A stretch of DNA of 64,000 bases from Acidobacteria bacterium RIFCSPLOWO2_02_FULL_65_29 (lineage in GTDB: Bacteria; Acidobacteriota; Vicinamibacteria; Vicinamibacterales; CAVVIG01). This document shows positions 1 through 13,362 of this stretch, piece by piece; within the stretch, counting starts at the first letter, position 1, and the number at the start of each line of letters is the position of its first letter. Below the pieces are notes generated by a model. The model worked only from the letters and a program-made list of their open reading frames with translations, had not been told where the DNA came from and searched no databases. The stretch lies in the NCBI GenBank assembly GCA_001767435.1, contig MEKT01000021.1, positions 1-64,000 of the forward strand, read 5' to 3'. A program made the translations under genes and the position numbers.

Positions 1-1152
1 GCCTTGTATTTCATCACCAAGTTCTTCTAGTGCTTTCGAAAAGCGTGGAGACAGGCCGGAACGGTCGAGCAGATCTGCCCGCAACAGTAATGCGGAAACG
101 TGAAGAACATGATCGCCAGCGGTAGTCGCAAAGGCAAGGGCAAGATCCACTTGCCGGATCGCTTCTTCAATAGCGCCTTCCCGAGAGAGAAGCTCGGCGC
201 GCGTCAATTGAGAATGGCGATTTGCGTAAAGAAGCCAATCAGCCGGAGTTGCTATGGACTCTTCAATCCTGTGTAGGCATGCAGCAGCTTCCTCCTTCCG
301 GTTTTCTCGAAGTCGAATCCGAGCCATGCTCTCCCACGTCCCGTTCGACATTTCGCCATCCTCGGGAAGGGCAGCGTACGCCAATTCGAGGTAATCCGCA
401 GCCTCCTTGAATCGCCCACTTAAGTAGCAGAGGTTGCCGAGATTCCCAAGACACGCCCTCTTGAGACCGGCGCAGCCGCTTTGCTCAACGAGTTCGAGGG
501 CGTGCCCGGCGTGTCTTATTCCTTCCCGAATATCGGACCGCATGATCGCCAGAGCGACCAGGGTTATCTCCGCCCTGGCCTCAATCCACAGATTGGACGA
601 ATCTCCCAGAAGTCTAAGGCCTCGGGTCGTATGTCGACTGGCGTTTTGCACAAGACCTCGCTTGGCCTCCATCTCCCCAAGGAACACGTGAAGAGCCGCC
701 GCCACCTGAGGATCGCCGAGTTGCACGGAAGTGGATCTGGCTTCGGCGAGCAACGGAATCGCAGCATTCGGACCTGAGCGGTCGGCAAGGGCGAGCATCA
801 GACGAAGTTGACTCCAAAAAGTCAGCTTGAGGTCTTTGGCGGCCTTCGCAAGTGATAGAGCCCTTTGAAAGTGAAGAATCCCAGCCTGTGACCTTGAGGT
901 GTCGAATTTGATAATCCCCAGAGTGAGCTCGCAGGCGCTCTTGTGGATGACCGGAAGATTCGGTGCTTTCAGAAGCCGTTCGCAAATTGCCCAGCTCTGA
1001 CCGTACCGCCCAGTTCTTTCCAATAGGTGTGCATGAAGGACGTCCACGCCGGGACGGTCGCTTGCGCGAGGTGCTAGAGCGTTGATTGCTTGTAGCCCCG
1101 CGGCAAATCGGCCGGCCCTGACATGATTCTCCACAGCCTTCAAACGATCCAT
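1..1152 (-). CDS. TPR-repeat protein, C-terminus cut by window edge
   Basis: An open frame runs from an ATG at 1152 to the window edge (384 codons) with no stop. A GGAGG four bases before the ATG fixes the start. The protein begins MDRLKAVENHVRAGRF and is almost wholly helical, with repeated paired helices such as YLSGRFKEAADYLELAYAAL that look like degenerate TPR units. No signal peptide or membrane segment is visible, so it is probably cytoplasmic. Helical TPR regions of this kind are common as scaffolds or as sensor parts of large regulators; the effector domain, if any, would lie outside the window. It is on the same strand as the HD-GYP and IFWGQ protease genes, 329 bases after the former. 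Confident as a gene, weak on function. Confidence 0.75.
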   Translation of the reverse strand, partial: MDRLKAVENHVRAGRFAAGLQAINALAPRASDRPGVDVLHAHLLERTGRYGQSWAICERLLKAPNLPVIHKSACELTLGIIKFDTSRSQAGILHFQRALSLAKAAKDLKLTFWSQLRLMLALADRSGPNAAIPLLAEARSTSVQLGDPQVAAALHVFLGEMEAKRGLVQNASRHTTRGLRLLGDSSNLWIEARAEITLVALAIMRSDIREGIRHAGHALELVEQSGCAGLKRACLGNLGNLCYLSGRFKEAADYLELAYAALPEDGEMSNGTWESMARIRLRENRKEEAAACLHRIEESIATPADWLLYANRHSQLTRAELLSREGAIEEAIRQVDLALAFATTAGDHVLHVSALLLRADLLDRSGLSPRFSKALEELGDEIQG

Positions 1153-1481
1153 AAGTCCTCCGATGACGGCGGAGCTCGACGGACGAATTGTGGCTCGATT
1201 TGATATTGTGACGAAGAGGTGAATTTGATCTTCACAATTCCCTGTGCCACCCGATCAGAAGCTGGCCGGAGAGCCCTGTTAATAGCGTCGGGAGGGGGAC
1301 TGCACGACCCCATCGCGATCGTGACGAGCTTCAGTGGACATGAGAAGAACGATCTTGTTGTTGCGAAGCAGCATGTACCTGGGCCAACTTTGGAAGCCGC
1401 CGAAACGAACCCTCACCATCCTTGACGTGAAGGCACGTTACAGCCGACCACACTTGGCAACTCGGTCAGGCCGTGTCTGCG
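1153..1481. other. Intergenic region between HD-GYP gene and TPR gene
   Basis: This 329-base gap has no convincing gene. It holds the ribosome binding site of the TPR gene (GGAGG at 1157-1161, read on the minus strand) and presumably its promoter, although no clear -35/-10 pair stands out. One minus-strand 46-codon frame (1279-1419) is listed separately with low confidence. Base composition is lower in GC than the rest of the window. Confidence 0.5.
1279..1419 (-). CDS. Possible small ORF or gene remnant, 46 aa
   Basis: A minus-strand ATG at 1419 opens a 46-codon frame ending in TAA at 1279. The peptide contains SWPRYMLLRNNKIVLLMSTE and so has a short hydrophobic stretch. An AAGG lies directly against the ATG, which is too close for a normal ribosome binding site. 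It could be a small protein, a remnant of a longer gene, or chance. I do not recognise it. Confidence 0.15.
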   Translation of the reverse strand: MVRVRFGGFQSWPRYMLLRNNKIVLLMSTEARHDRDGVVQSPSRRY

Positions 1482-3386
1482 TCACTGGAAGCTGAATTCT
1501 ATCGCGGACTTGAACGCTTGAGCAGACTGACGCGCGACTGCTTCTACTATCCGCCTGTGATCCTCAGTGAAACCTTCACTTTGACACGAATAGAGTGTCA
1601 ACACTCCTACAAGCTGTTCCTCGCCCAGAAGCACTGGGCAACTGAGACAACTCCGGAGGCGGGGACTGAAAGCCCTCGCGAGGTCGCCAAGATCTAGCGT
1701 TGGATCAGAATTCAATATCGCTTGTCGATTTGCCGCAACCCAGCCGCTAAGCCGTTGACCCAGTGGAATGCGCAAGGCGCGGGTAAGTCCAGCGAGATCT
1801 CCACTCGCATGTCTTGCTATCAATTCGTCCGTTGCATCATCGTATTGATAGAGGACGACAAACGCGAAGGGAACGAGTCTGCGAAGGTGCTTCGAAATGA
1901 CGTCCCCTGTTTCGATTAGGTTCGGCTGGTGGGCCAAGGCCCTTGCCAGTTCGTACAGCGTAATGATCGCGTCCGTACCGGCAGCGATATCCTCGATCGG
2001 CGGGAGGCTGGTCGTTTCTCGCGTCTGTATCGAGCTTGTAATCTCATCCAGTGCTCCCGTGGGAAGGTCCACGCCTACCTCTGGCGCAATAATCGTATGA
2101 ACTCGAGCAAATGTATCAACAACGAGGGGATCGTACATTTTCCCTCGCCGCTCAAATAGAATTCGTAAAGCTTCATCGTCCGCAAGTCGCGGCCTGTATG
2201 GGCGGTCTGACGTCAAGGCATCGAAGCAGTCGACCACGGACAGGATTCTGGCACCGATCGGAATATCGGTTCCCTTGATTCCCGTAGGATATCCAGTTCC
2301 GTCCCAGTTTTCATGGTGGTGTCTGACGATTGGCACCACGGGGTAGGGGAAATCGATCGCAGACAGGATGTCAGCTCCGACGCTCGCGTGAAGTTTCATT
2401 TTTTCGAACTCGAGACCGGTTAACTTGCCAGGCTTGTTCAGGATGTATTCTGGAACTGCCAACTTGCCCATGTCGTGTAAGAGCGCCGCGGCCTCGATTG
2501 CTTTGATCAACTTGTCGTCGGTTACGCCGATGTGCCGAGCCAATCCAACGGCGTATCCTTGAACGCGCCGAATGTGGCCGTGAGTGATCTGGTCCTTGGC
2601 GTCGATGGCCATTGCCAAAGTTTCGATCGTCGAGAGATATAGGCGGTTCAACTCGCTCAGGTGTTTGTTGCTGTCCTCTACTCGACCCATGGCAGTTCGA
2701 AATGTCAGATAGGACACGACCAAAAGAGGCACAATGATTAGCAAAGCGCTCGGAGCAAGCTCTCGCATGTAGGTCACTATCAGCGCGGCCACGGAGGCGC
2801 CACTGAAATAGTTGACCGACAGCCATGTGAAGCGCGTCCACCAAATGACCATCGCTGACTGTTGGGTTTCAAGCCCGACAGCGATCGCAACCAGCCAACT
2901 GTTCAATAGAAAGTAGAGACCTGTGAACGCAGTCAGCGGAAGGATCAGATCGGCAAGGGGAGTCGAATGCAGGGAATAGGGCTCAATCCCTGGAAACAGG
3001 AAGAAGACTGTTGCCGCGATCCAAAGTGCTATAGCTGGTGCCGCAAGATTGAAGACGAGTCGATGGAACGGCCGCCCGATTGGACTCATCCAAAAGATGA
3101 CGATCAGGGCCTCTAACAGCACCATGATCGTTCCGGCGGGCGTTCCGAAGAGGAGTACCGCTACAAAAACGAAAGTCTCAGATATTGAAATCCGAGCATT
3201 AATTGACGCGTCTTTGACGCTGAACGATCCAGTCAGCAGCGTCAATGCTGCGATCACGCCCCATTGGGCGCCGGGAGGATCAAGGACGAGCCTATACGTC
3301 GAATGTACAACTGCTGCCGTACCGGCCAGCACGACGGCAGACACGTAGGCTCTTGCAGGTCGCCGGAGTTGGGCGAATCTGACCAT
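1482..3386 (-). CDS. Membrane-anchored HD-GYP domain protein with C-terminal GAF
   Basis: 634 aa. Residues about 12-230 form roughly eight hydrophobic segments, resembling membrane-embedded sensor (MASE-type) domains. Residues about 245-435 are an HD-GYP domain: the metal-binding HD pair is at 304-305 (ALLHDMGKLAVPEY) and the GYP signature is at about 356-367 (HHHENWDGTGYP). Residues about 470-630 look like a GAF domain. HD-GYP enzymes usually hydrolyse cyclic di-GMP, and the metal ligands appear intact, so activity is plausible. Having a GAF after the catalytic domain, rather than before it, is less common. The ATG at 3386 has no clear ribosome binding site; a nine-codon ORF with a strong site lies just upstream in the same frame. 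The gene follows the IFWGQ protease gene by 96 bases on the same strand and is probably co-transcribed with it. Confidence 0.9.
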   Translation of the reverse strand: MVRFAQLRRPARAYVSAVVLAGTAAVVHSTYRLVLDPPGAQWGVIAALTLLTGSFSVKDASINARISISETFVFVAVLLFGTPAGTIMVLLEALIVIFWMSPIGRPFHRLVFNLAAPAIALWIAATVFFLFPGIEPYSLHSTPLADLILPLTAFTGLYFLLNSWLVAIAVGLETQQSAMVIWWTRFTWLSVNYFSGASVAALIVTYMRELAPSALLIIVPLLVVSYLTFRTAMGRVEDSNKHLSELNRLYLSTIETLAMAIDAKDQITHGHIRRVQGYAVGLARHIGVTDDKLIKAIEAAALLHDMGKLAVPEYILNKPGKLTGLEFEKMKLHASVGADILSAIDFPYPVVPIVRHHHENWDGTGYPTGIKGTDIPIGARILSVVDCFDALTSDRPYRPRLADDEALRILFERRGKMYDPLVVDTFARVHTIIAPEVGVDLPTGALDEITSSIQTRETTSLPPIEDIAAGTDAIITLYELARALAHQPNLIETGDVISKHLRRLVPFAFVVLYQYDDATDELIARHASGDLAGLTRALRIPLGQRLSGWVAANRQAILNSDPTLDLGDLARAFSPRLRSCLSCPVLLGEEQLVGVLTLYSCQSEGFTEDHRRIVEAVARQSAQAFKSAIEFSFQ

Positions 3387-3422
3387 TTCGAGGGGCTGGA
3401 CCAGCGCCTACTCGTTATCGGC

Positions 3423-3452
3423 TTAGTCTTCCCAGATGATTAGGCGGCTCAT
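3423..3452 (-). CDS. Nine-codon ORF with strong ribosome binding site before the HD-GYP gene
   Basis: On the minus strand an AAGGAG (complement of 3460-3465) sits seven bases before an ATG at 3452, which opens MSRLIIWED and stops with TAA at 3423. It is in the same frame as the HD-GYP gene, whose ATG is 66 bases further on, but two in-frame stops separate them. The HD-GYP ATG has no such site. This could be a leader peptide, a coupled translation entry point, or the old start of the HD-GYP gene now closed by stops. Confidence 0.35.
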   Translation of the reverse strand: MSRLIIWED

Positions 3453-3482
3453 CACGGTTCTCCTTCAAAGAATCTGTCGGAT

Positions 3483-5231
3483 CTAGAAATGCTCGTCGCT
3501 AGCCATCTGACCCCAGAAGATCGAGTCAGATTGCCCCCAGAAGATGGAATCAGCGTCCATCTGTCCCCAGAAGATCGAGTCGGACTGTCCCCAGAAAATC
3601 GACGCAGCTTGGCCCCAGAAAATCGAATCGGATTGCCCCCAGAAGATGGAATCTGACTGTCCCCAGAAGATCGAATCGGTTTGGCCCCAGAAGATTGAAT
3701 CAGCCTGAATGCCGAAATTCGTGTGCCTTATTCCGGAGCGCTTAGCGGATGTTTTTCCCGGCAGCGTTACGCGCAGCTGAACGGTTGCGCTGTCAGAAGG
3801 ACTCTGGAGGCTCTGGGAAGTAACCCGGCCCGTGTAGGCGAATCCCAGCGCCTCTGCAATCTCCCCGGCGATTACCGTGTCTCCAACCGCCGAGCTAGCG
3901 CCGTTTGCGACCAAGTCCACCGCCGCCAGCGCATTCAAACTCCCCGCGCCACTCACCACCAACCCCTCGCCCGGCATGAACGAGCTCGTCATTTGCAGCA
4001 CGGCCTTCGCGTCGCGCGGCGTCAACCGCTCCCGCTCCTCCAAGAGCAGCGCCACGGTCCCGCTCACCACCCCCGCCGCCATGCTCGTGCCCGACAGCTG
4101 CAGATACCCATCCGAACCCGTTCCCGCCACGTGCCGCGCCGGATACGTCCTCGACAAATACGACCCCGCCGCCTCCGCCGACACCACGCGCGTTCCGGGC
4201 GCCACCAGGTCCGGCTTCAGCACCAGGTCGTACCGCGTCGGCCCCTTCGAGCTGAACTTCGCCACCGTGTCGTCTGACCGCACCGCCGTCTCGTGCGTGT
4301 CGAGCGCCCCCACCGTGATCACGTGCGGATCGTTGCCCGGCGTCGCCACGCTCCCGTACACCTGCCGGCCCTCCGCGTCGATGCCGTAGTTGCCGGCCGC
4401 CACGATCACCAGCATGCCCGCCGCCACCGCGCGCTCCACGGCCTCGCACATCGGGTCGTCGCGATACGGCTGCGTCACCGGCGCGCCGAGCGACAGATTG
4501 ATCACCTTGATGTCGAACTGGCGGCGGTTCTCGATCGCCCAGTCGATGGCTTCGATCACGTCGCTGGCCATGCCCGCTCCGTCTTCATTGAGCACGCGCA
4601 GGTTGATGATGCGCGCGCCCGAGGCGATGCCCCGGTAGTCGCTCGTATCGGCCGTTCGGCCCGCTCGACCCGCGATGATCCCCGCGACGTGTGTGCCGTG
4701 GCCGTACCGATCCGATCCGTCGCCGCCGATGAAATCCCTGATGAACACAACTTTGCCGCTGAGCGCCGCGTGATTCGCGTCGACACCCGAATCGATCACC
4801 GCCACGCCAACGCCCGCGCCCGACAACGACGGAACGCCCTCGCCGCCGGCCCAGACCTGATCGGCGCCGATGGTCTGTGCGGTCACGTCGCCAATCGAGC
4901 GAATCGGCACGTCCGCCGATAGATGTTCCAGCGTCTCGTCCTGCTGCAGGGCGTCGAGTTGACCGGCGGTGACGCGCAGAACGGCGCCGCTCCGCAGGTA
5001 CCGCTTGACGCGCACGTTGTACCGCCGCGCGAGCGCGTCCACCTCGGCACGAGTGCCGTGGACGATGACGTCGATCGAGGCCGACCCGGCCGCCAGATGA
5101 TCGGCCAGATCCGCGCTGAGCCGCGCGCGATGGGCCTGGGCGTCGGCCGGCCCCGCCACAAGTATCGAAACGAATGTGAGCGTTGTCGCCACCGTCACGA
5201 CTCGCCGAAGCCTTGCTGGAATTCGTGCCAT
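3483..5231 (-). CDS. Secreted S8 (subtilisin-like) protease with C-terminal IFWGQ repeats
   Basis: 582 aa. Residues 1-32 are a signal peptide (cleavage near ADAQA). Residues about 35-120 resemble an I9-type propeptide that folds and inhibits the protease. The S8 catalytic domain (about 135-440) has all catalytic residues: Asp147 (AVIDSGVD), His178 (HGTHVAG), oxyanion Asn281 (AAGN) and Ser382 (GTSMAAG). After a linker, residues 510-575 carry eight copies of a unit close to SDSIFWGQ, then a short acidic tail MASDEHF. The repeat tail is not part of the usual S8 fold and I know no assigned role for it. The gene lies between a small HTH gene (31 bases upstream) and the HD-GYP gene, all on the minus strand. 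The enzyme is probably periplasmic or extracellular; the Trp-rich tail could bind a partner or surface, or be a processed product. Confidence 0.93.
   Translation of the reverse strand: MARIPARLRRVVTVATTLTFVSILVAGPADAQAHRARLSADLADHLAAGSASIDVIVHGTRAEVDALARRYNVRVKRYLRSGAVLRVTAGQLDALQQDETLEHLSADVPIRSIGDVTAQTIGADQVWAGGEGVPSLSGAGVGVAVIDSGVDANHAALSGKVVFIRDFIGGDGSDRYGHGTHVAGIIAGRAGRTADTSDYRGIASGARIINLRVLNEDGAGMASDVIEAIDWAIENRRQFDIKVINLSLGAPVTQPYRDDPMCEAVERAVAAGMLVIVAAGNYGIDAEGRQVYGSVATPGNDPHVITVGALDTHETAVRSDDTVAKFSSKGPTRYDLVLKPDLVAPGTRVVSAEAAGSYLSRTYPARHVAGTGSDGYLQLSGTSMAAGVVSGTVALLLEERERLTPRDAKAVLQMTSSFMPGEGLVVSGAGSLNALAAVDLVANGASSAVGDTVIAGEIAEALGFAYTGRVTSQSLQSPSDSATVQLRVTLPGKTSAKRSGIRHTNFGIQADSIFWGQTDSIFWGQSDSIFWGQSDSIFWGQAASIFWGQSDSIFWGQMDADSIFWGQSDSIFWGQMASDEHF
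3507..3704 (-). repeat. Tandem 24-nt coding repeats giving eight IFWGQ units
   Basis: The minus strand encodes eight copies of IFWGQ, mostly every eight residues (24 nt). One copy has AAS in place of SDS before IFWGQ, and one is preceded by two extra residues (MDADSIFWGQ). The DNA units are similar but not identical, with varied third positions, suggesting selection on the peptide as well as copy-number slippage. Confidence 0.9.
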
Positions 5232-5262
5232 TACGTGCCCCCGAAAAAGGTCGATGCAGAAA

Positions 5263-5481
5263 TTAATTCCCCGCGTCGTGCTCGAGCGGAGCGGTCAGCG
5301 AGTCGACCAGCACGCGCTGGGATCCGCCACGCGTCCGAATCGTCTGCAGCCGGCCATCGCGGATCCGGTTGTAGATGGTCCGCCGCGACACGCCCAGCAG
5401 CGCCGCGGCGTGGTCCAGCGAAACGCTCCGGCCGATACGAGATTCGACGCTGCCTTCGGGCGCCTGCGCGCTCAACGTCAT
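5263..5481 (-). CDS. Small helix-turn-helix (excisionase/MerR-like) DNA-binding protein
   Basis: 72 aa from the ATG at 5481, which has a GGAGGG six bases upstream; a TTG two codons earlier is less likely. Residues about 20-65 fit the HTH_17/excisionase family: SVSLDHAAALLGVSRRTIYN followed by a basic wing with RDGRLQTIRTRGGSQRV. Such domains bind DNA. The gene ends 31 bases before the IFWGQ protease gene on the same strand, so it is likely the first gene of that operon and may regulate it. It has no integrase or phage neighbour, arguing against a true excisionase. Confidence 0.8.
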   Translation of the reverse strand: MTLSAQAPEGSVESRIGRSVSLDHAAALLGVSRRTIYNRIRDGRLQTIRTRGGSQRVLVDSLTAPLEHDAGN

Positions 5482-5760
5482 GAGCAACCCTCCGATTCGC
5501 TCAGGTACTACCGCACGGGGGGTGCCAGCTGCAGGAGCTCATCCGTTGTTAGGGTCTCTAACTGGTTGAATTACAGCCACTTGGGGAGGTACTATGGACA
5601 GCCAGTGGCGACGGGCTCCTCGGCGGCAGCTCGGTCAGAAACTTAGCCGGACGGGGCGACAAGCTCGTGATCGGACGGCGGTTTGCACGAAACAATCAAC
5701 GCGGTGCCGTCTTTTCCGTGCAATCTTGATCGGGCAGCTTTCTGGCCGCTGGGTCGGCTT
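5482..5760. promoter_or_regulatory. Divergent upstream region between HTH gene and ABC transporter genes
   Basis: About 280 bases separate the HTH start (minus) from the preferred binding-protein start (plus). Promoters for both operons must lie here, but no clear consensus pair is visible. The HTH ribosome binding site (GGAGGG on the minus strand) is at the left end. The frame of the binding protein remains open to a TTG at 5683, so part of the region may be coding. Confidence 0.4.
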
Positions 5761-7506
5761 TTGACCAGACACACTCGCCTCCTCGAGGCCTTCGCTTTCC
5801 TCGCCCTTGCCACGGCCCTGGCCTCGGGCTGTGAGTCTTCGCCATCTCCGACTGGGGCGATCGGGGCAATTTCGAGCGCTGCCCCGGTTCGTGGCGGCCA
5901 ATTGGTCGCATCGGTTCGCACCGAGCCGCAGTCCTTCAACTGGTACACCCAACACGACGGCACGACCGACGTTCTGACGTTTCTCACGCAGGCACGGCTC
6001 GTTCGCGTCAATCGCGTCACGCAGGAGATCGAGCCGTGGCTCGCCGAACGCTGGACCCGCGCCGACGACGGCCGGAGCTATACCGTGAAGCTTCGCGCGA
6101 ACGTGACCTTCGCCGATGGTCACCCCTTCTCGGCCGACGACGTGCTGTTTTCGTTCGCGGCGGCGTACGACCCGAAAGGCGGCGGCCCGACGATTGGAGG
6201 AGACGTGATGGCTGGCGGCCAGCCGCTGCGCGTCTCGGCGCCCGACCCGCTCACCGTCGTCATCACGTTCCCCGTGCCGTTTGCGCCCGGTCTCAGATTG
6301 CTGGACAACCTGCCGATTTTGCCGAAACACAAGCTCGAGGCGGCGCTCCAGGCCGGCACGTTCGCCGACGCGTGGAGCCTGTCGACGCCGGTGTCCGAGA
6401 TCACGGGGCTCGGCCCCTTCGTGTTGACCGACTTCCGCCCGGGACAGCGGCTGGTCTTTTCGAGAAACGACCGCTACTTCCGCAAAGATTCGAGCGGGGT
6501 CCCGCTGCCGTACCTCGATCGCGTCGTCGTCGACATCGTGCCCGACCAGAACGGCCAGGTCCTGCGGCTCGAAACGGGCCAGGCCGACATGATGACGTCC
6601 GAGGCGAGGCCCGAAGACTACGCCGCGCTCAAGCGCGCGGCGGACCGAGGTCGTGTGCAGCTGGTCGACCTGGGCGGCGCGCTCGACGCCGACAGTTTCT
6701 GGATCAATCTGAAACCGGGCGCGTTCGGCGCCGATCCGCGCGCGACGTGGCTGCAGCGCGACGAGCTTCGGCAGGCGATCTCGTTCGGGGTCGATCGGAA
6801 GGCGTTTGCCGATACGGTGTTTCTCGGGGCGGGCGTACCGGTGTATGGTCCCGTCACGCCGGCCAACCGGAAGTGGTTTTCATCAGCCGTGCCGCAGACG
6901 CCCTACGACCCGGCGCGTGCCGAGGCGCTCCTGGCCGGGATTGGCCTGACCGACGGAAACGGCGACGGCATGCTGGAAGACGCGCGCGGCGTCGCCGCAC
7001 GGTTCTCGCTGACGACCCAGAAGGGGCAGACGGCGCTCGAGCGCGGCGCGCAGGTGCTTCGCGACGAGCTGAAGAAGATCGGGCTGGCTGTGGATATCGT
7101 GGCCCTCGAAGGGAACGCCGCGGTCGCGCGCTTCGTGTCGGGGCAGGGCTACGAGGCCGCGTACTTCCACATCGGGATGACCGACGTCGATCCGGCGCTG
7201 CAAACAGAATACTGGTTGAGCGCGGGAGGCTTCCATGTCTGGAACCTCGGCCAGAAAACGCCGGCCACCGCGTGGGAGCGGCAGATTGACGAGTTGATGG
7301 CCCGGCAAACGGCCGCGCTCGACGAAGGGGAGCGCAAGCGGACGTTCGACGAGGTCCAGAAGATCTTCGCCGAGCATCTGCCCGTCGTGCATTTCGCGGC
7401 GCCGAGAATCTTCATGGCGGCGTCCTCGCGCGTGATGGGGCTGACGCCGGCCGTCCAGCGGCCGCAATTCCTGTGGTCACCCGACTCGTTATGGGTGAGG
7501 CCTTGA
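5761..7506 (+). CDS. ABC transporter substrate-binding lipoprotein, peptide/opine type (SBP_bac_5)
   Basis: About 581 aa. The frame is open from a TTG at 5683, but starting at the TTG at 5761 gives a compact lipoprotein signal ending in the lipobox LASGC, with the Cys near residue 24. The body matches family 5 solute-binding proteins of the OppA/DppA type: RGGQLVASVRTEPQSFNW near the N-terminus, then YTVKLRANVTFADGHPFSADD, and a late DQARQAISFGVDRKAF-like helix (here LRQAISFGVDRKAFADTV). It would sit on the periplasmic side and deliver oligopeptides or similar ligands to the two permeases that follow. No ATPase gene is nearby. The substrate cannot be told from sequence. Confidence 0.9.
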   Translation: MTRHTRLLEAFAFLALATALASGCESSPSPTGAIGAISSAAPVRGGQLVASVRTEPQSFNWYTQHDGTTDVLTFLTQARLVRVNRVTQEIEPWLAERWTRADDGRSYTVKLRANVTFADGHPFSADDVLFSFAAAYDPKGGGPTIGGDVMAGGQPLRVSAPDPLTVVITFPVPFAPGLRLLDNLPILPKHKLEAALQAGTFADAWSLSTPVSEITGLGPFVLTDFRPGQRLVFSRNDRYFRKDSSGVPLPYLDRVVVDIVPDQNGQVLRLETGQADMMTSEARPEDYAALKRAADRGRVQLVDLGGALDADSFWINLKPGAFGADPRATWLQRDELRQAISFGVDRKAFADTVFLGAGVPVYGPVTPANRKWFSSAVPQTPYDPARAEALLAGIGLTDGNGDGMLEDARGVAARFSLTTQKGQTALERGAQVLRDELKKIGLAVDIVALEGNAAVARFVSGQGYEAAYFHIGMTDVDPALQTEYWLSAGGFHVWNLGQKTPATAWERQIDELMARQTAALDEGERKRTFDEVQKIFAEHLPVVHFAAPRIFMAASSRVMGLTPAVQRPQFLWSPDSLWVRP

Positions 7507-7513
7507 ACGGCTG

Positions 7514-8488
7514 ATGTTGTTCTTTCTTCTACGGCGGCTCGTCTTCGCGGGTTTTCTGGTGTTCGCCGTGTCGTCAGCGTCGCTGCTGCTCGCGGAGCTG
7601 GCCCCCGGCGACTACGTGACTGGCACGCTGGGCTTCAGCGCCACGCCCGAGGAGATGGCCGCGCTTCGCGCGCGCTACGGTCTCGATCGCCCGCTCGCCG
7701 AGCAGTACGTCGATTGGCTCGCGCGGGCCGCGCGGTTCGACTTCGGCCGCTCGCTCGCCAACGGGCGGCCCGTGGCCGACCTCATTTCCGAAGCCGCCGC
7801 CAACACGGCGCTGCTGGCCACGACGGCGCTCGTGCTGGCGACCTTCATCGGACTGCCGCTGGGCGTCTTCTCGGGCGCGCGTGCGGGCGGCGTCTTGCCC
7901 GGCATGGTGCGCGCCGCGTCGGTCTTCCTGCTGTCCATGCCGCCCCTCCTGACCTCGCTCTTCCTCGTATTCCTGGCCGCACGTACAGGATGGTTTCCGA
8001 TCGGCGGCATGAGCTCGATCGGTCCCGGTGGCCCCGGGGGTAATATGGAGAGCTTCGAGTACGTCGCAATCGATCTTCTACGCCACATGGTGGTGCCCGT
8101 CCTCGCCCTTGCGCTGCCGCTCTCGGCGATGTTCGAGCGGCTGCAGGCGCAGGCCACCGCCGAAGTGATCGCCCAGCCCTACGTGCTGGCGACGCTCGCG
8201 CGCGGCGTTCCGCGATCGAGAGTGGTCTGGCGCGACGCGCTCAAAGCCGCGCTCAGGCCGGTCGCGTCGATTTACGGTCTCGTCGTCGGCACGCTGCTCA
8301 GCGGATCGTTTGCGGTCGAGGTCATTACGACGTGGCCGGGTCTGGGCAGCCTGATGTTGAACGCGTTGCGCGCGCGGGATGTGTATCTGGTGGCCGGCTG
8401 CGCCGCGGCCGGATCGATCTTCCTGGCGGCGGGCACGCTCGTGTCCGACGCCGCGCTGGCGCTGGTCGACCCGAGGGCGCGAGAGTGA
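7514..8488 (+). CDS. ABC transporter permease, DppB/OppB type
   Basis: 324 aa, starting seven bases after the binding-protein stop. It has an N-terminal membrane segment (FLLRRLVFAGFLVFAVSSAS), the TM_PBP1 N-terminal region with RYGLDRPLAEQYVDWL, and five further hydrophobic segments. The cytoplasmic EAA-like loop that contacts the ATPase is ATLARGVPRSRVVWRDALKA. It forms the inner-membrane channel together with the next gene. Its last codons overlap the next start (GTGA). Confidence 0.92.
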   Translation: MLFFLLRRLVFAGFLVFAVSSASLLLAELAPGDYVTGTLGFSATPEEMAALRARYGLDRPLAEQYVDWLARAARFDFGRSLANGRPVADLISEAAANTALLATTALVLATFIGLPLGVFSGARAGGVLPGMVRAASVFLLSMPPLLTSLFLVFLAARTGWFPIGGMSSIGPGGPGGNMESFEYVAIDLLRHMVVPVLALALPLSAMFERLQAQATAEVIAQPYVLATLARGVPRSRVVWRDALKAALRPVASIYGLVVGTLLSGSFAVEVITTWPGLGSLMLNALRARDVYLVAGCAAAGSIFLAAGTLVSDAALALVDPRARE

Positions 8489-9501
8489 GCAGGAGACCCG
8501 CCCTCCATGCGTTCACGGTCCAGCGGCTGGGTGCCAGTGTCCTTATTACTACTGCCGTGGCCGCGCTGGCCGCACCCTTCGTCGCGCCCCACGAGACGGA
8601 TCGGCGGTTCCCTGGCCTCCTGAACGCACCGCCGACCGCGGTGCGCCTGCGCGACGCCGCGGGATCGTGGCGTGCTCCGTTCATTTACCCGTGGACGCGC
8701 GTCAGCCAGCTCGAGCAGCGATACGAGGAAGACCGCACATCGCCCGTGCCCCTGGCATGGCTCGCCACGGGCCGCCTCGTGGCCTCGAGCGACGACGGGC
8801 GGGCGCCCCTGCTTCTGTTGGGCGCCGACAGCTTTGGCCGCGACGTGTTCAGTCGCCTGCTCTTTGGGGCTCGACTCTCGCTCGCCCTGGCGCTTCTGGC
8901 CGCGCTCGGCGCGACGCTCATCGGCGCGCTGCTCGGCGGGGTGGCGGGTTACGTCGGCGGCGTGGTGGACGACGTCATGATGCGGGCGTCCGATTTCGTG
9001 CTGGTGCTGCCCGCCATGTACGTCGCGCTGGTCCTGCGCGCGATGATGCCGCTCACGCTCGACGCTCCCGCGGTGTTCGCCCTGCTGGCGGCCATTTTCG
9101 CCGTCGTGGGCTCGCCGTTCATCGCGCGCGGCGTGCGGGCGATCGTCAGGACTGAACGCGCGCTCGACTATGCCGCCGCCGCGGCGTCGCTCGGGGCCGG
9201 CCACGCGCGCGTGCTGTGCAGGCATCTCTTGCCGGCAGCCCGCGGCTTCCTGGTTGTGGAAATCACCCTGCTCGTGCCCGCGTTCATCGTCGCGGAAGCC
9301 ACCTTGTCGTACGTGGGCCTCGGGTTTCCCGATACGATCGCGAGTTGGGGGACCATGCTCGAGGACGCGTCGAACATCGCGGCATTCGCCGATTTTCCCT
9401 GGTTGCTGAGCCCCGCCGCCGCGATGTTTCTCGTGGTGTGGGGGCTGAACCTGACGCTGCAGAACCGGTCCGCGGGCGCGCAGTACGAGCGGCTCATGTG
9501 A
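8485..9501 (+). CDS. ABC transporter permease, DppC/OppC type
   Basis: 338 aa from the GTG at 8485, which overlaps the stop of the previous gene in GTGA. A longer in-frame extension to 8332 would lie inside the dppB-type gene and is rejected. Features are an N-terminal membrane segment near residues 15-32, the conserved GADSFGRDVFSRLLFGAR element, further membrane segments, and an EAA-like loop with AAASLGAGHARVLCRHLLPA. It pairs with the preceding permease. An insertion at residues 50-100 with YEEDRTSPVPLAW is longer than in typical DppC. Confidence 0.92.
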   Translation: MSRRPALHAFTVQRLGASVLITTAVAALAAPFVAPHETDRRFPGLLNAPPTAVRLRDAAGSWRAPFIYPWTRVSQLEQRYEEDRTSPVPLAWLATGRLVASSDDGRAPLLLLGADSFGRDVFSRLLFGARLSLALALLAALGATLIGALLGGVAGYVGGVVDDVMMRASDFVLVLPAMYVALVLRAMMPLTLDAPAVFALLAAIFAVVGSPFIARGVRAIVRTERALDYAAAAASLGAGHARVLCRHLLPAARGFLVVEITLLVPAFIVAEATLSYVGLGFPDTIASWGTMLEDASNIAAFADFPWLLSPAAAMFLVVWGLNLTLQNRSAGAQYERLM

Positions 9502-9657: not shown

Positions 9658-9699
9658 GTAATCGTCGTGTTCGGGATTCGGGGGCGTACAATTGGCATC

Positions 9700-10590
9700 A
9701 TGAATCTCACGGGGGTACTGGCGCCTGTTCCGACGCCGTTCGACGACGGCGATCGCGTGGACACGACGCGGCTGAAAGCGGCGTTCGCGCGCTGGGTGAA
9801 GGGTCCGCTGACCGGTTTTGTCATCCTCGGCTCGAACGGCGAAGCCGTCTTGATGGACGAAGACGAGAGCGATCGCGCCATTGCGGTCGCGCGCGAGGCG
9901 GTGCCGCTTGGCCGGACACTGCTGGCCGGCACCGGCCGCGAGTCCACGCAGGCCGCGATTCGGGCCACGAGGCGCGCGGCGGCGCTCGGCGTCGACGGCG
10001 TGCTGGTGCGCACGCCCGGATTCTTCAAGTCGCAGATGACCACGGAGGTCTTCGTCCGCCACTACGCCGCCGTTGCCGACGCCTCGCCCGTGCCGGTGCT
10101 CTTGTACAACTTCACCGCGATGACGGGCGTGAATCTGCTCCCGGCTGCCGTGTCCGAGCTCGCTCGCCACCCGAACATCATTGGGATGAAGGAATCGGGC
10201 GGCGACATCGCGCAGGTGGCCGATCTGGTGCACGGCACGCCGAACGACTTCCCGGTGCTCGCCGGGTCGAGCACCACGTTCTACGCGGCGCTCTCGGTCG
10301 GCGTCGCGGGCGGCATTCTCGCGCTGGCCAACGTCATTCCCGATGTCTGCGTGCGGCTGTACGATCTCTTCCGGCAGGGTCGCCACGACGAGGCGCGCGA
10401 TCTGCAGCGCCAGATCGTGCCGCTCGCGCGGCTCCTCGGTCCGGTGTATGGCGTCCCGGGGCTCAAAGCCGCGCTGGCACTCACGGGTTGCGATGTCGGC
10501 GTGCCGCGTCCGCCGCTCATGCCGCTCGCTGATGCCGGCGTCGCGGCGCTCAGAGACGCGCTCGCGCCGTTCGAGCAGATTGCCGTATGA
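9700..10590 (+). CDS. Dihydrodipicolinate synthase-family aldolase, HOGA1-like (4-hydroxy-2-oxoglutarate aldolase candidate)
   Basis: 296 aa from the ATG at 9700; an upstream GTG at 9667 is less likely. It is a class I aldolase TIM barrel: GSNGE at 44-48 (the DapA GTTGE position), Tyr136 in VLLYNF and Schiff-base Lys164 in GMKESGGD. The GSNGE, the LLAGTGRESTQA stretch and the C-terminal VYGVPGLKAALAL resemble eukaryotic HOGA1 more than DapA. HOGA1 splits 4-hydroxy-2-oxoglutarate into pyruvate and glyoxylate. The next gene, overlapping in ATGA, encodes an alanine-glyoxylate-type aminotransferase, which would use glyoxylate; this supports the assignment. The lysA gene is far away at 30 kb, so a DapA role is less favoured but not excluded. 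Confidence 0.85.
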   Translation: MNLTGVLAPVPTPFDDGDRVDTTRLKAAFARWVKGPLTGFVILGSNGEAVLMDEDESDRAIAVAREAVPLGRTLLAGTGRESTQAAIRATRRAAALGVDGVLVRTPGFFKSQMTTEVFVRHYAAVADASPVPVLLYNFTAMTGVNLLPAAVSELARHPNIIGMKESGGDIAQVADLVHGTPNDFPVLAGSSTTFYAALSVGVAGGILALANVIPDVCVRLYDLFRQGRHDEARDLQRQIVPLARLLGPVYGVPGLKAALALTGCDVGVPRPPLMPLADAGVAALRDALAPFEQIAV

Positions 10591-11717
10591 GCCTGCTTCC
10601 CGACATCGATCGCGTTCTGCTTGGTCCCGGCCCGAGCCCCACGTCTCCGCGCGTCATGCGCGCCATGGCGTCGCCCACCGTCAGCCCTCTCGATCCCCTG
10701 ATGCTGGCGCTCCTCGACGACGTGCGGGCGCGGCTCACGCGGATGTTTCGAGCGCCCGAGGGTTCGTTTGCGTTTGCCGTCTCGGGCACAGGCACCTCGG
10801 GCATGGAGACCGCGGTCGCCAACCTCGTGAAGGAGGGGACGCGCGCGCTCGCCGTTGTGACCGGCTACTTCGGCGATCGGCTCGCGCAGATGTGCGAGCG
10901 GTACGGCGCCACGGTTACGCGTCTCGACGTCGAGTGGGGCCGCGCGTGCGATCCCGCCGCGCTCCGCCGCGCGCTCGACAGGACGCCGGCCGACCTCGTC
11001 GCCATGGTCCACGCCGAGACGTCGACCGGTGTCCTGAACCCAGTCGACCTCATGGCGCCTATCGCGCGCGAGCGCGGAGCGCTGACGATCGTCGACGCCG
11101 TGACGTCGTTCGGCGGCCACCCGCTCGACGTCGGCGCGTGGAGCATCGACGCCTGCTACAGCTGCACGCAGAAGTGCCTTGGCGCCCCGTCGGGGCTCGC
11201 GCCCGTCGTGTTCGGTCCGCGCGCGCTCGAGAGGCGCGTGAAGTGCCGCAGTTTCTATTTCGACCTTCAGCTCCTGCAGGACTACTGGCTGAACCGGAAG
11301 TACCACCACACGATGTCGTCCACACTCGTGTACGCGCTCGATGAAGCGCTCGCCATCGTCGAAGAGGAAGGGCTCGAGGCGCGGTGGGCGCGGCACGAGC
11401 GCAACCATCGTGCGCTCATCGAGGACCTGAAGACGATCGGGCTCTCCGTGCTGCCGCCCGAGGGCGAGCGGCTGTGGACGCTGAACGCGGTGCGCGTGCC
11501 GAACACCGTCAATGACCCCGCCGTGCGAAAGCACCTTCTCGACCAGTTCAACATCGAGATCGGCGCCGGCCTCGGTCCGCTCGCCGGACAGATCTGGCGC
11601 GTGGGCCTGATGGGCGCGGGCTCCGCGCCGCGGCTGATCGTGTTGCTCATCGGCGCGCTCGAGAGCGCCTTGGCGCTTCAGGGGAACAAGGTGCCTGCCT
11701 ATGAAGCGCAGCCCTAA
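10587..11717 (+). CDS. PLP aminotransferase class V, alanine-glyoxylate/serine-pyruvate type
   Basis: 376 aa, starting at an ATG that overlaps the aldolase stop. It begins LLGPGPSPTSPRVMRAMASP, the substrate-loop signature of the AGT/SPT family. The PLP-binding Lys is Lys196 in SCTQKCLGAPSG, preceded by the VDAVTSFGG motif (Asp170 contacts the pyridine nitrogen). Family members transfer an amino group from alanine or serine to glyoxylate, giving glycine. With the HOGA1-like aldolase it would form a two-step route from hydroxyproline-derived 4-hydroxy-2-oxoglutarate to pyruvate and glycine. The 3' end overlaps the next gene by 17 bases. Confidence 0.92.
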   Translation: MSLLPDIDRVLLGPGPSPTSPRVMRAMASPTVSPLDPLMLALLDDVRARLTRMFRAPEGSFAFAVSGTGTSGMETAVANLVKEGTRALAVVTGYFGDRLAQMCERYGATVTRLDVEWGRACDPAALRRALDRTPADLVAMVHAETSTGVLNPVDLMAPIARERGALTIVDAVTSFGGHPLDVGAWSIDACYSCTQKCLGAPSGLAPVVFGPRALERRVKCRSFYFDLQLLQDYWLNRKYHHTMSSTLVYALDEALAIVEEEGLEARWARHERNHRALIEDLKTIGLSVLPPEGERLWTLNAVRVPNTVNDPAVRKHLLDQFNIEIGAGLGPLAGQIWRVGLMGAGSAPRLIVLLIGALESALALQGNKVPAYEAQP

Positions 11718-12708
11718 GACTCGGACTCAGACTTGGACGAGCCGGATCGGCACGGCGGCAGCGAGCGTCGCGGCCCTCGGCTTCGGGTGCCTGGCGTACG
11801 CGTATCTCACGCTGCCCGACGTCCGTCCGCTCGCCAAGTTGAATCCCGAGACCACGGCATTCATGGACCTGCGCGATCGGGAGGCGCGCGCGAGGGGCAA
11901 CGAGCCCAAACGGGTGCACAGGTGGGTGGCCTACAGCCGCATTTCGCCGAGCCTGAAGCGCGCGGTGCTCGTCGCCGAAGACGCCGCGTTCTGGTCGCAC
12001 GACGGCCTCGACTACGACGAGCTTCGAAAAGCCATCGAGCTCGACTGGGAGCGCGGGCAGCTCGTGCGCGGCGCCAGCACCATCACACAGCAGCTGGCCA
12101 AGAACCTGTATCTCTCGCCGTCGAGAAATCCGCTGCGCAAGCTGCGCGAGCTCATCATCGCCCGTCGCCTCGAGGCAGAGCTGGAGAAGGCGCGCATTCT
12201 CGAAATTTATTTGAACGTCATCGAGTGGGGCGACGGCGTGTACGGCGTTGAAGCGGCGGCGCGCTCCTACTTCGGCACGTCCGCGGCGGCGTTGGGCCCG
12301 ACGGAATCGGCGCTCCTGGCGGGCGCCATCGTCAACCCGCGCCTGCTGAACCCCGCGCATCCGACGCCGCGGCTACGCAACCGTCAGCGCCTGATTCTGG
12401 GACGGATGCACGTGGTGGTGCCGCCGCCCGATACGGCCCCGCCCCGCCCTGAGCCTGTCGAAGGGCCTCGCCCTGCGCCTGCCGAAGGGATCCGTGCCGA
12501 GGAGCCTGCCGAATCGCCTCACGCCGAGCCTGCCGAAGTGCCTCACGCCGAGCCTGTCGAAGGGCCTGACCCTGAGCCTGCCGAAGGGCCTCGCGTTGAG
12601 CCTGCCGAAGGGCTTCGCCCTGAGCCTGCCGAAGGGCGGGGTGAAGTCCGGCCTGAGCCCGACCAACCATTGAGGTCCGCGCCAGCCGCGGAGCCCGATC
12701 AGTTTTGA
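11701..12708 (+). CDS. mtgA: Monofunctional peptidoglycan glycosyltransferase (GT51) with repeat tail
   Basis: 335 aa. After a short basic N-terminus there is one membrane segment (about residues 13-33). Residues about 60-225 are GT51, which polymerises lipid II into glycan strands: the catalytic Glu lies in [14 protein letters not shown], followed by [17 protein letters not shown] and [13 protein letters not shown]. No transpeptidase domain follows, so it is MtgA-like. The last 90 residues or so are a low-complexity Pro/Glu tail built of 8-residue units like EPAEGPRP, encoded by a 24-bp tandem DNA repeat with the REP-like core. The tail is absent from MtgA as known and is probably a repeat expansion. 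The gene overlaps the aminotransferase by 17 bases. Confidence 0.9.
12453..12633 (+). repeat. Eight 24-bp tandem copies of the GCCTG(T/C)CGAAGGG repeat inside mtgA
   Basis: GCCTGTCGAA or GCCTGCCGAA starts at 12453, 12477, 12504, 12528, 12552, 12576, 12600 and 12624, that is every 24 bases with one 27-base step. All copies are in the same reading frame and give an eight-residue protein period. The unit is the same core as the dispersed REP-like palindromes. Confidence 0.85.
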
Positions 12709-12741
12709 GTTTCACTTCAGGCCGCGTTTTTCAGCAGCCTG

Positions 12742-13362
12742 CTATCGGACGCGCCGCACTGCCACAAAACGGCTCGACCAGTAGGCCGCGCCCAGGCGCT
12801 CCACTCGAACCACGCCTGTGGAGCTTGGGGCGTGGACGAACTCGTCGCCACCGACGGCGATGGCCACGTGTGACGCGCCGGGATCCGTCGTGGTGAAGAA
12901 CACCAGATCGCCGGCCGCCAGCTCGCCCGCCTTGACGGTTGTGCCAAGCCTGTACTGATCGCGGACCGCCCGCGGCAGGGCCACACCGTATTGCGCGAAT
13001 ACGTACTGTGTGAAGCCGCTGCAGTCGAAACCGCGTGGGCTCGCGCCGCCGTTGAGGTACGGCGTGCCCCGCAATTCGAGCGCCGTGCCCACGAGCGCGT
13101 ACGAATCGAAAATCGTCGGCCTCGACGCAGCCGACGGCGACGCGGCCGGCGGTGCGGCTGGCGCGCGTTCGGGTGGCGTGGACGGCGAGCCCCGCCTCGT
13201 ACCTATGGGGTCCGGCATCGGAAACGGCTTGGGCACCGGCACGTGGCCAGCAGTCCCGCTCGACGCGCAGCCCGCCAGAACGGTCGACAGCACTAGAGCC
13301 GAGGCGGCGCCGCCAAGGCCGGGGTGGCACCGCAGGCCGGGACGGTTTGCCGTACTGTGCAT
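12742..13362 (-). CDS. NlpC/P60 family cell-wall peptidase, lipoprotein
   Basis: 206 aa from the ATG at 13362; the frame is open to 13404 but this start gives a good lipoprotein signal with lipobox VLAGC. A Pro/Ala-rich linker spans about residues 40-85. The NlpC/P60 domain carries the catalytic Cys in FDCSGFTQYVF and the His in ASHVAIAVGGDEFVHA. Such enzymes cleave peptide stems of peptidoglycan, usually at the D-Glu to diaminopimelate bond. It converges on mtgA, leaving a 33-base gap, so the two cell-wall genes are neighbours but not an operon. Confidence 0.9.
   Translation of the reverse strand: MHSTANRPGLRCHPGLGGAASALVLSTVLAGCASSGTAGHVPVPKPFPMPDPIGTRRGSPSTPPERAPAAPPAASPSAASRPTIFDSYALVGTALELRGTPYLNGGASPRGFDCSGFTQYVFAQYGVALPRAVRDQYRLGTTVKAGELAAGDLVFFTTTDPGASHVAIAVGGDEFVHAPSSTGVVRVERLGAAYWSSRFVAVRRVR

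Follow-up and report, generated by a model that had tools for sequence, protein, structure and literature searches.

Introduction

Peptide signalling of the RRNPP/RRNPPA type (Rap-Phr, PlcR-PapR and the like) combines an Opp-type importer, a TPR-containing regulator and an extracellular protease, and some of these systems have tandem pheromone copies (PMC11343458; PMC10569065). In the NspS-MbaA system of Vibrio, the gene for a periplasmic binding protein lies close to that for a membrane-bound cyclic-dinucleotide enzyme; MbaA is a GGDEF/EAL protein. Subtilisin-like proteases such as Tk-SP (3afg) share a propeptide-catalytic fold but are not known to carry a tail of I-x-W-G repeats.

Here, we analysed a 64,000-nucleotide stretch of DNA (“the window”; contig MEKT01000021.1, positions 1 to 64,000, assembly GCA_001767435.1) of Acidobacteria bacterium RIFCSPLOWO2_02_FULL_65_29, in which a first-pass annotation had noted a row of four minus-strand genes encoding an HTH protein, a repeat-tailed S8 protease, a membrane HD-GYP protein and a TPR protein. 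In contrast to RRNPP systems, the candidate regulator here is, judged from relatives, a sigma54 AAA+ activator, the repeats are part of a subtilase, a membrane HD-GYP protein is present, the phylum is diderm, and any peptide sensing is hypothetical. Compared with NspS-MbaA, the cyclic-dinucleotide enzyme is of the HD-GYP type, its membrane part is inferred to be a hydrophobic region rather than a large periplasmic domain, and permease genes accompany the binding protein gene. Other I-x-W-G-tailed S8 proteases of Acidobacteriota, on contigs C90 and C238 of the same genome and in many of the homologous loci L104 to L183, belong to the same catalytic family and have the same tail type, but the C90 type is accompanied by HD-GYP only and the C238 type by GNAT neighbours, and the sigma54 activator block was not seen with them. 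Literature searches for the gene combination returned no description of it, as judged from the top-ranked entries and the beginnings of their abstracts, and a search for repeat strings yielded a single unrelated paper.

Results

The gene row and its promoter region

The annotated gene row is real. The first gene, an ORF at 5263-5487 (−) with an ATG at 5481, encodes a 72-aa HTH_17/excisionase-like DNA-binding protein (5263-5481, −). It is followed after 31 bases (5232-5262) by the S8 subtilase gene (3483-5231, −; 582 aa) and after a further 96 bases (3387-3482) by the HD-GYP gene (1482-3386, −), in agreement with the gaps given in the first-pass annotation, while the gap between the HD-GYP and TPR genes is 329 bases. 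Pfam searches assigned HTH_17, Peptidase_S8, HD_5 with GAF_2, and TPR_12. One correction concerns the TPR protein (1-1152, −): because the window begins at base 1 of its contig, this reading frame is open at base 1 and is only a fragment. In 9 of 10 relatives the corresponding frames comprise 891-976 aa (618 aa in locus L079), and the three of them scanned for domains continue into Sigma54_activat (AAA+) and HTH_8 (Fis HTH), so that the fragment is the N-terminal TPR part of a probable bacterial enhancer-binding protein. It is 39% identical to residues 1-350 of the L046 protein. The GAFTGA loop was read in 5 of 5 relatives' sequences inspected, whereas the window copy is cut by the contig end. 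TPR matches pass Pfam's cut-off in the window fragment and in one of the three scanned activators (L046), fall below it in L064 and are absent in L078.

The subtilase has a hydrophobic N-terminal segment (a probable signal, from which secretion is inferred), a propeptide region, a catalytic domain with intact S8 motifs (VIDSG at residue 145, GHGTH at 177, GTSMA at 381) and a tail (3507-3704, −) of eight (S/T/A)(D/A)SIFWGQ units at residues 512-575, spaced by 8, 8, 8, 8, 8, 10 and 8 residues. Its closest structural match in a Foldseek search was 3afg (model mean pLDDT 58.8). The score against the T7SS mycosin family (NCBIfam TIGR03921, 146 bits) was below the cut-off of 278.75, and that against the IetS/IteS anti-phage peptidase family (NF042956, 76.9 bits) was below the cut-off of 900. 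The HD-GYP-type protein has hydrophobic N-terminal segments, a MASE9 match just below the cut-off, a C-terminal GAF domain and the intact motifs HDMGK and HHENWDGTGYP; a motif reads KDQIT where the solved enzyme 4mcw reads KDPET, and activity on c-di-GMP or another cyclic dinucleotide is inferred from sequence alone.

A −24/−12 sigma54-type element (TGGCACCCCCCGTGCG; 5512-5527, −) lies 30 nt before the HTH ATG, and the genome contains rpoN (Sigma54_DBD, E 4.8e-66). The element TGG[CT][AG]C-N6-TGC lies just upstream of the first gene in 11 of the 18 loci with the closest S8 homologues, in 14 of 26 “A-type” loci (picked by hand, partly because they had the HTH or activator gene) and in 16 of all 36 loci scanned, against a background of 0.054 per kb and strand. 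The strict form occurs nine times in the own genome compared with 76 times for the reversed control; the other eight matches, viewed only with 100 nt and downstream frames, are not shown to be non-promoters. In relatives, two inverted repeats and a TTTTGCGTGCAAAA-like site lie further upstream. We found 15 exact dyads in 12 of 19 promoter regions, which had been chosen because a promoter candidate was seen, and TTTGC-NN-GCAAA in 9 of 19, out of 40 and 10 occurrences, respectively, in all 1.89 Mb of loci including these regions. The window's own copies are weaker, comprising a proximal, degenerate GGCCA-N6-TGGCC dyad (GGCTAAGTTTCTGACC, two mismatches; 5633-5648, −), a TTTTGCGTGCAAAA-like site (TGTTTCGTGCAAAC, three mismatches; 5681-5694, −) and a distal dyad (GGCCAGAAAGCTGCCC, one mismatch; 5732-5747, −). 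The combined pattern of dyad, gap and promoter matched four times in 148 genomes, against six times for the reversed control, although three of the four matches are at these loci (the fourth is in genome G043).

A divergent Opp-type transporter

Back to back with the gene row lies an Opp-type ABC transporter block (5683-9501, +), which the first-pass annotation had missed together with the sigma54-activator half of gene 4, the sigma54-type promoter and the upstream dyads. It comprises an SBP_bac_5 (Opp/Dpp/Nik-type) binding protein (5683-7506, +; true start inferred to be near 5760), permease 1 (7514-8488, +) and permease 2 (8332-9501, +), whose listed start overlaps permease 1 and whose true start is probably later. 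No ATPase gene was seen in the window's Opp block. The binding protein has only one other match in the genome, a weak one with 28% identity. Opp genes are present in 15 of 17 of the closest loci with upstream sequence and in 22 of 24 A-type loci. Of 117 loci outside the A type, 16 also show Opp-type genes, and all 16 have an HD-GYP match. In many loci the Opp genes are followed by genes of the DHDPS family (DapA-like) and for class V aminotransferases, which are also syntenic, so part of the neighbourhood may reflect vertical synteny or catabolism.

Conservation of the gene set

Of 71 close subtilase matches in 149 genomes of the class, 35 have the HD-GYP gene directly downstream, all 35 on the same strand and in the same order; because of the strict E-values used, unpaired does not mean absent. 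The gene set is thus conserved beyond chance, and the absence of enrichment, which had been named beforehand as the outcome that would refute the interpretation, was not observed. Conversely, 25 of 60 close HD-GYP matches had no close S8 match within 3 kb. In a looser survey of 40 genomes, 32 of 113 S8 matches (3 of them second fragments of one gene) have an HD-GYP match within 6 kb, 27 downstream on the same strand but five upstream, one of these on the other strand. The HTH gene lies upstream in 15 of the 18 closest S8 homologues, and gene 4 follows in all 10 other loci of these 18 with enough sequence (nine to the C-terminus; L054 is cut by its contig end). A 5-mismatch scan that entered this comparison is permissive.

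Exceptions are present as well. The second pair in the same genome (C90) and relatives like it have S8 and HD-GYP without HTH or activator downstream, and no Opp. Loci L077 and L078 (family f4 in our grouping) and L073 lack HD-GYP; L046 and L050 (genus g8) lack Opp and the upstream HTH but keep the rest; and L055 lacks the HTH and shows no dyad.

In relatives from another class of the phylum, Terriglobia, protease, HD-GYP and Opp genes are again neighbours. In L115, HD-GYP, two permeases, the binding protein, an ABC ATPase and a tailed S8 follow each other on one strand. HD-GYP and binding protein genes co-occur among 80 named loci (12 both, 18 HD-GYP only, 1 binding protein only, 49 neither). 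These loci are 80 of at least 583 confirmed relatives and have unequal flanks, but the association holds in the 39 loci of 17 kb or more (8 both, 8 HD-GYP only, 0 binding protein only, 23 neither).

The repeat tail

The window's tail units are under strong purifying selection (pN 0.026, pS 0.68), although the motif used to pick the units fixes part of the unit and thereby lowers pN at these positions. The eight units show seven distinct DNA forms of the 6-codon core, which together with the pS value rules out very recent slippage as the sole cause of the repeats; some other tails, such as those of L093 and L055, do look recent (pS 0.07-0.30). The unit sequence is largely uniform within many proteins but differs between orthologues, and IFWGQ is encoded nowhere else in the genome sequence searched. 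Similar tails occur on S8 proteases with GNAT neighbours or without HD-GYP, HTH or TPR neighbours (for example L008), and the tail is therefore not specific to this gene set.

The modal spacing of the I-x-W-G units is 6 in 19 of 43 tails, but it varies widely and is 8 in the window. One of two Blastocatellia-type tails tested matches the hexapeptide beta-helix family (Hexapep) above the Pfam gathering score of 27; L176 scored 31.3 and L163 23.9. No Hexapep match was obtained for L061, L078, L070 and L055 at E 10, or for the window S8 at E 0.001. The best of five models of the L061 tail shows regular 4-residue strands, but model confidence is low (mean pLDDT 48 for L061, 28-33 for the other four models and about 25 for the window tail), and the two structure predictions did not settle the nature of the tail.

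Discussion

The first-pass annotation was right about the gene row itself. Its interpretation, that an extracellular protease or its repeat peptide is linked to second-messenger signalling through the HD-GYP protein, is only partly supported: the set is conserved and the functional link fits, but it remains unproven. We consider it about as likely as not (probability roughly 0.5) that this is one sigma54-controlled, autoregulated locus coupling extracellular proteolysis to peptide uptake and cyclic-dinucleotide turnover. The sequences themselves show a −24/−12 element with upstream dyads in front of a gene row (HTH, tailed subtilase, membrane HD-GYP, TPR-sigma54 activator) that carries its own candidate activator and lies back to back with an Opp-type transporter, as well as the recurrence of the protease/HD-GYP/Opp neighbourhood in another class of the phylum. 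The remainder is inference, without expression, binding or enzyme data behind it: that the row is one co-transcribed, rpoN-dependent operon, that the protease is exported and releases peptides, that the Opp binding protein and permeases take them up, that peptide supply is read by the TPR domain of the activator, which would switch the operon on, and/or by the membrane part of the HD-GYP protein, and that HD-GYP activity then lowers c-di-GMP or a related dinucleotide. In this view, the repeat tail is more likely a multivalent or surface-holding part of the enzyme than a signal.

A tentative reading of the tail, compatible with the above, is that the I-x-W-G units form a short beta-solenoid or a multivalent binding tail that holds the protease at the cell surface or on a substrate, the link to the system being through the protease. 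The modal spacing of 6, the L176 Hexapep match, the regular strands of the L061 model and the occurrence of tails in many contexts agree with this, whereas the low model confidence, the other Hexapep results and the variable spacing do not.

It is less likely that the locus serves nutrient scavenging only, with protease, Opp, DapA-like and aminotransferase genes digesting and using external protein, sigma54 control reflecting nitrogen or peptide supply, HD-GYP merely sharing the lifestyle switch, and no dedicated peptide signal. S8 peptidases are described as widely distributed in acidobacterial genomes and linked to N acquisition (PMC5900883), and the genes following Opp fit this view. However, one specific S8 clade, with its own activator and mostly an HD-GYP, is tied to the Opp genes while the S8 genes on C90 and C238 of the same genome are not, and selection on the tail units is not explained.

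That the tail is a multi-copy pheromone precursor, cut by the protease (or another) into SIFWGQ-type peptides that Opp imports and the TPR domain of the activator (or the HD-GYP membrane part) senses, so that the operon self-induces in a sigma54 analogue of RRNPP signalling, appears unlikely. This possibility is suggested by the largely uniform units within many proteins and their difference between orthologues, the low pN, the absence of IFWGQ elsewhere in the genome, the presence of an Opp-type transporter, TPR activator and protease in one locus, and the tandem pheromone propeptides cut by extracellular proteases in Bacillota (PMC11343458). Against it stand the tails on proteases in other contexts, the structural reading offered by the Hexapep match and the TPR domain that is not clear in all activators; moreover, no pheromone that is the tail of a protease has been described to our knowledge. 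Its fullest form, a self-contained circuit in a diderm phylum in which the co-expressed HD-GYP protein would turn the result into a cyclic-dinucleotide response and the lineage-specific repeat would set the dialect, is slightly less likely still, though it is not excluded.

A chance neighbourhood is rejected by the uniform strand and order of the 35 pairs, and a known defence system by PADLOC, whose models (given without cut-offs) matched only the subtilase core, the AAA+ domain and, weakly, the HD (Cas3-type) and the HTH (mad1). RTX-like repeats, suggested by the DNIVWGTDGDD appearance of some tails, gave no Pfam RTX match, but neither search included a DNIVWGT-tailed protein, so that this rejection is only partial.

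Acidobacteriota are among the commonest soil bacteria, yet how they sense neighbours, peptides or surfaces is little known. A wider version of the locus is carried by Occallatibacter savannae AB23, which has S8 with HD-GYP, permease and binding protein genes on the facing strand (L153). A conserved, apparently self-regulated block that physically links a tailed protease, a peptide-type transporter, a candidate sigma54 activator and an HD-GYP-type enzyme hints at an undescribed way for these bacteria to sense or manage peptides outside the cell, and gives a directly testable entry to it. It would join extracellular proteolysis to second-messenger control, and it offers a candidate for peptide-based signalling outside Bacillota.

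Gene content and conservation of the locus

The first-pass annotation had described a row of four minus-strand genes encoding an HTH protein, a repeat-tailed S8 subtilase, an HD-GYP protein and a TPR protein, and this observation held. However, the window starts at base 1 of its contig and the TPR gene is therefore cut. In relatives, the frame is longer (open frames of 891-976 aa in nine of the 10 read, and 618 aa in locus L079) and, in three of three proteins scanned, carries a Sigma54_activat AAA+ domain and a Fis-type HTH. TPR matches pass Pfam's cut-off in locus L046, stay below it in L064 and are absent in L078. The part present in the window matches residues 1-350 of the L046 protein at 39%. 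Accordingly, the fourth gene is most likely a TPR-bearing sigma54 activator and not a plain TPR protein.

To assess conservation, we first paired 113 S8 matches (E <= 1e-20) and 91 HD-GYP matches (E <= 1e-60) from 40 close genomes by coordinates. Of the S8 matches, 32 (three of them second fragments of one gene) have an HD-GYP match within 6 kb, 27 with it downstream on the same strand and five with it upstream, one of these on the other strand. In an even sample of 149 genomes of the class, 71 S8 matches (E <= 1e-85) and 60 HD-GYP matches (E <= 1e-140) gave 35 pairs within 3 kb, all 35 on the same strand with the HD-GYP downstream and with gaps of 44-616 nt. Of the 36 unpaired S8 matches, 13 on the minus strand lie within 1 kb of the contig start and three on the plus strand end at the contig end, so that a whole partner could not be seen; one of these (genome G017) shows a partial HD-GYP. 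Conversely, 25 of the 60 HD-GYP matches had no such S8 match within 3 kb.

Of the 18 closest S8 homologues (E <= 4.8e-125), 15 have the HTH directly upstream (missing in L046, L050 and L055). The HD-GYP gene follows in 12 of the 13 loci that have downstream sequence, counting two cut by the contig end (L047, L049) and a short one (L076), while L073 lacks it. The activator follows in all 10 other loci of the 18 with enough sequence (L046, L048, L050-L055, L073 and L076; L054 is cut by its contig end), besides the fragment in the window. In L046, L048, L050, L052, L053, L073 and L079, a second small HTH gene similar to the first gene of the row lies on the opposite strand just past the end of the activator gene; the window's contig ends before this place.

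A second S8 and HD-GYP pair in the same genome (contig C90) and similar loci lack the HTH, a downstream activator and Opp genes. One locus with a C90-type pair, L058 (genome G010), has an activator match (58%) and an opposite-strand HTH a few kb upstream of the pair, perhaps the remains of a block like that in the window. Family f4 (L077 and L078, from the single-contig genomes G039 and G027 of 6.5 and 7.5 Mb) keeps an S8 protease with a DTLVWG tail and the activator but not the HD-GYP. In the HD-GYP protein of the window (1482-3386), the motif reads KDQIT where the solved 4mcw enzyme reads KDPET; none of the relatives whose motif was read has Glu there, which may affect metal centre or substrate.

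A sigma54-type element and upstream dyads

A TGGCAC-N5-[G/C]TGC element lies upstream of the first gene; in the window it is TGGCACCCCCCGTGCG at 5527-5512(-), 30 nt before the HTH ATG. With the pattern TGG[CT][AG]C-N6-TGC it is found there in 11 of the 18 closest loci and in 14 of 26 "A-type" loci, a set picked by hand, partly because they had HTH or activator. Of all 36 loci scanned, L091 and L106 also have a match just before the S8 gene. Looser forms (up to five mismatches, a permissive scan) occur there in the other A-type loci with an HTH, except L073. The background of the pattern is 0.054 per kb and strand, and in the genome of the window the strict form occurs nine times against 76 for the reversed-pattern control. 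The rpoN gene is present.

Upstream of the element, GGCCA-N6-TGGCC dyads sit near -214 and -116 relative to it and a TTTTGCGTGCAAAA-like site near -162. We found 15 exact dyads in 12 of 19 promoter regions and TTTGC-NN-GCAAA in nine of 19, out of 40 and 10, respectively, in 1.89 Mb of all loci, these included, whereas one plain base shuffle gave at most one locus for any such pair. The window's dyads are degenerate (one and two mismatches) and 99 nt apart, compared with 94-100 nt in the others that show both; its central site has three mismatches, and L055 shows no dyad. A combined dyad and promoter pattern matched four times in 148 genomes, three of them at these operons, against six matches of the reversed control. 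The pattern as a whole is thus not enriched, but its placement is.

A divergent Opp-type transporter

Directly upstream and facing away lie an SBP_bac_5 binding-protein gene and two permease genes. Of the 18 closest loci, 17 have upstream sequence and 15 of these show at least one of the three genes; L046 and L050, which belong to one genus, lack them and also lack the upstream HTH. Over the 26 A-type loci the count is 22 of 26, two of the misses having under 0.5 kb of upstream sequence. Sixteen of 117 other loci also show such a gene, and all 16 have an HD-GYP match. No Opp-type substrate model reaches its cut-off, so the substrate is unassigned, and in the genome of the window the binding protein has one other match, at 28% identity. 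In many relatives the Opp genes are followed by DHDPS-family and class V aminotransferase-like genes (9667-11717 in the window), possibly reflecting amino-acid catabolism, for which a hydroxyproline-type pathway is conceivable. Further along, an ORF that appears transglycosylase-like by eye (11701-12708) ends in Pro/Glu-rich degenerate repeats (EPAEGP; about 12360-12708).

We also examined 80 named loci, the best 80 of at least 583 confirmed relatives, a selection that says nothing on other phyla. They are labelled as Acidobacteriota taxa except one Cyanobacteria MAG; L106 carries its S8 and HD-GYP pair on a 213-kb contig labelled Cyanobacteria, which suggests a mislabelled MAG or a transfer. 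Of the 80 loci, 30 have the HD-GYP, 13 the binding protein and 12 both (Fisher p 1.4e-5; 2.1e-4 in the 39 loci of full length). In L115 (labelled Terriglobia), HD-GYP-GAF-GGDEF, two permeases, SBP, an ABC ATPase and the tailed S8 follow each other on one strand, and L111, L124, L134 and L157 show the same order of matches. The link between protease, HD-GYP and Opp therefore reaches across classes.

The repeat tail of the protease

The tail units are largely uniform within many proteins and differ between orthologues (SIFWGQ, QILWSD, RIIWSD, NIIWTD, TIIWGD and others), although some tails (L049, L050, L062) are mixed. In the window, synonymous differences between units are many while amino acids are kept (eight units, seven distinct DNA forms, pS 0.68, pN 0.026). 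Over 43 proteins the medians are pS 0.39 and pN 0.15, with pN below pS in 41. Because the unit-finding motif fixes some positions, pN is somewhat underestimated. Low pS in some tails points to recent expansion. IFWGQ is coded nowhere else in the genome sequence examined. The modal spacing is six in 19 of 43 tails but the distribution is broad, and it is eight in the window.

L176, L163, L151, L127 and similar Pyrinomonadaceae/Blastocatellia or unclassified Acidobacteria loci have tails almost without Trp (GVLVGD, GIMVSD, GVLLSD). Of two tails of this VLVGDG type tested, one is above the Hexapep cut-off, so that the W-type and hexapeptide-type tails may be one family. Structure predictions are not confident for the tail, whereas the catalytic part is a subtilisin with propeptide, nearest to Tk-SP. 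Tailed proteases are also found in other surroundings: locus L008 (contig C238 of the same genome) contains two tandem S8 proteases with DNIVWGT tails (6297-8663 and 9948-13088), each followed by an overlapping GNAT-like frame (Pfam-confirmed for the first), and the S8-GNAT pairing recurs in other loci (e.g. L108, L160, L168 and L181).

Interpretation

The sequence data show the conserved gene set, the promoter element, the dyads, the divergent Opp-type genes, the intact catalytic motifs and the selection on the tail units. In contrast, a single transcript, export of the protease, peptide release, uptake, sensing by the TPR domain or by the membrane HD-GYP protein, autoinduction and dinucleotide degradation are all inferred. 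The interpretation of the first-pass annotation is partly supported: the gene set is conserved beyond chance, and the inference that an extracellular protease or its repeat peptide is linked to second-messenger signalling through the membrane HD-GYP protein fits but is unproven. A reading of the tail as a pheromone is possible but not favoured, because similar tails occur on proteases without this context. Searches of open-access literature for the repeat strings and for the gene combinations gave no description of this gene set among the top-ranked entries, which, as most papers of subscription journals were outside their reach, is not proof of absence. Most likely overall, the locus is a self-regulated proteolysis, peptide-uptake and second-messenger locus.
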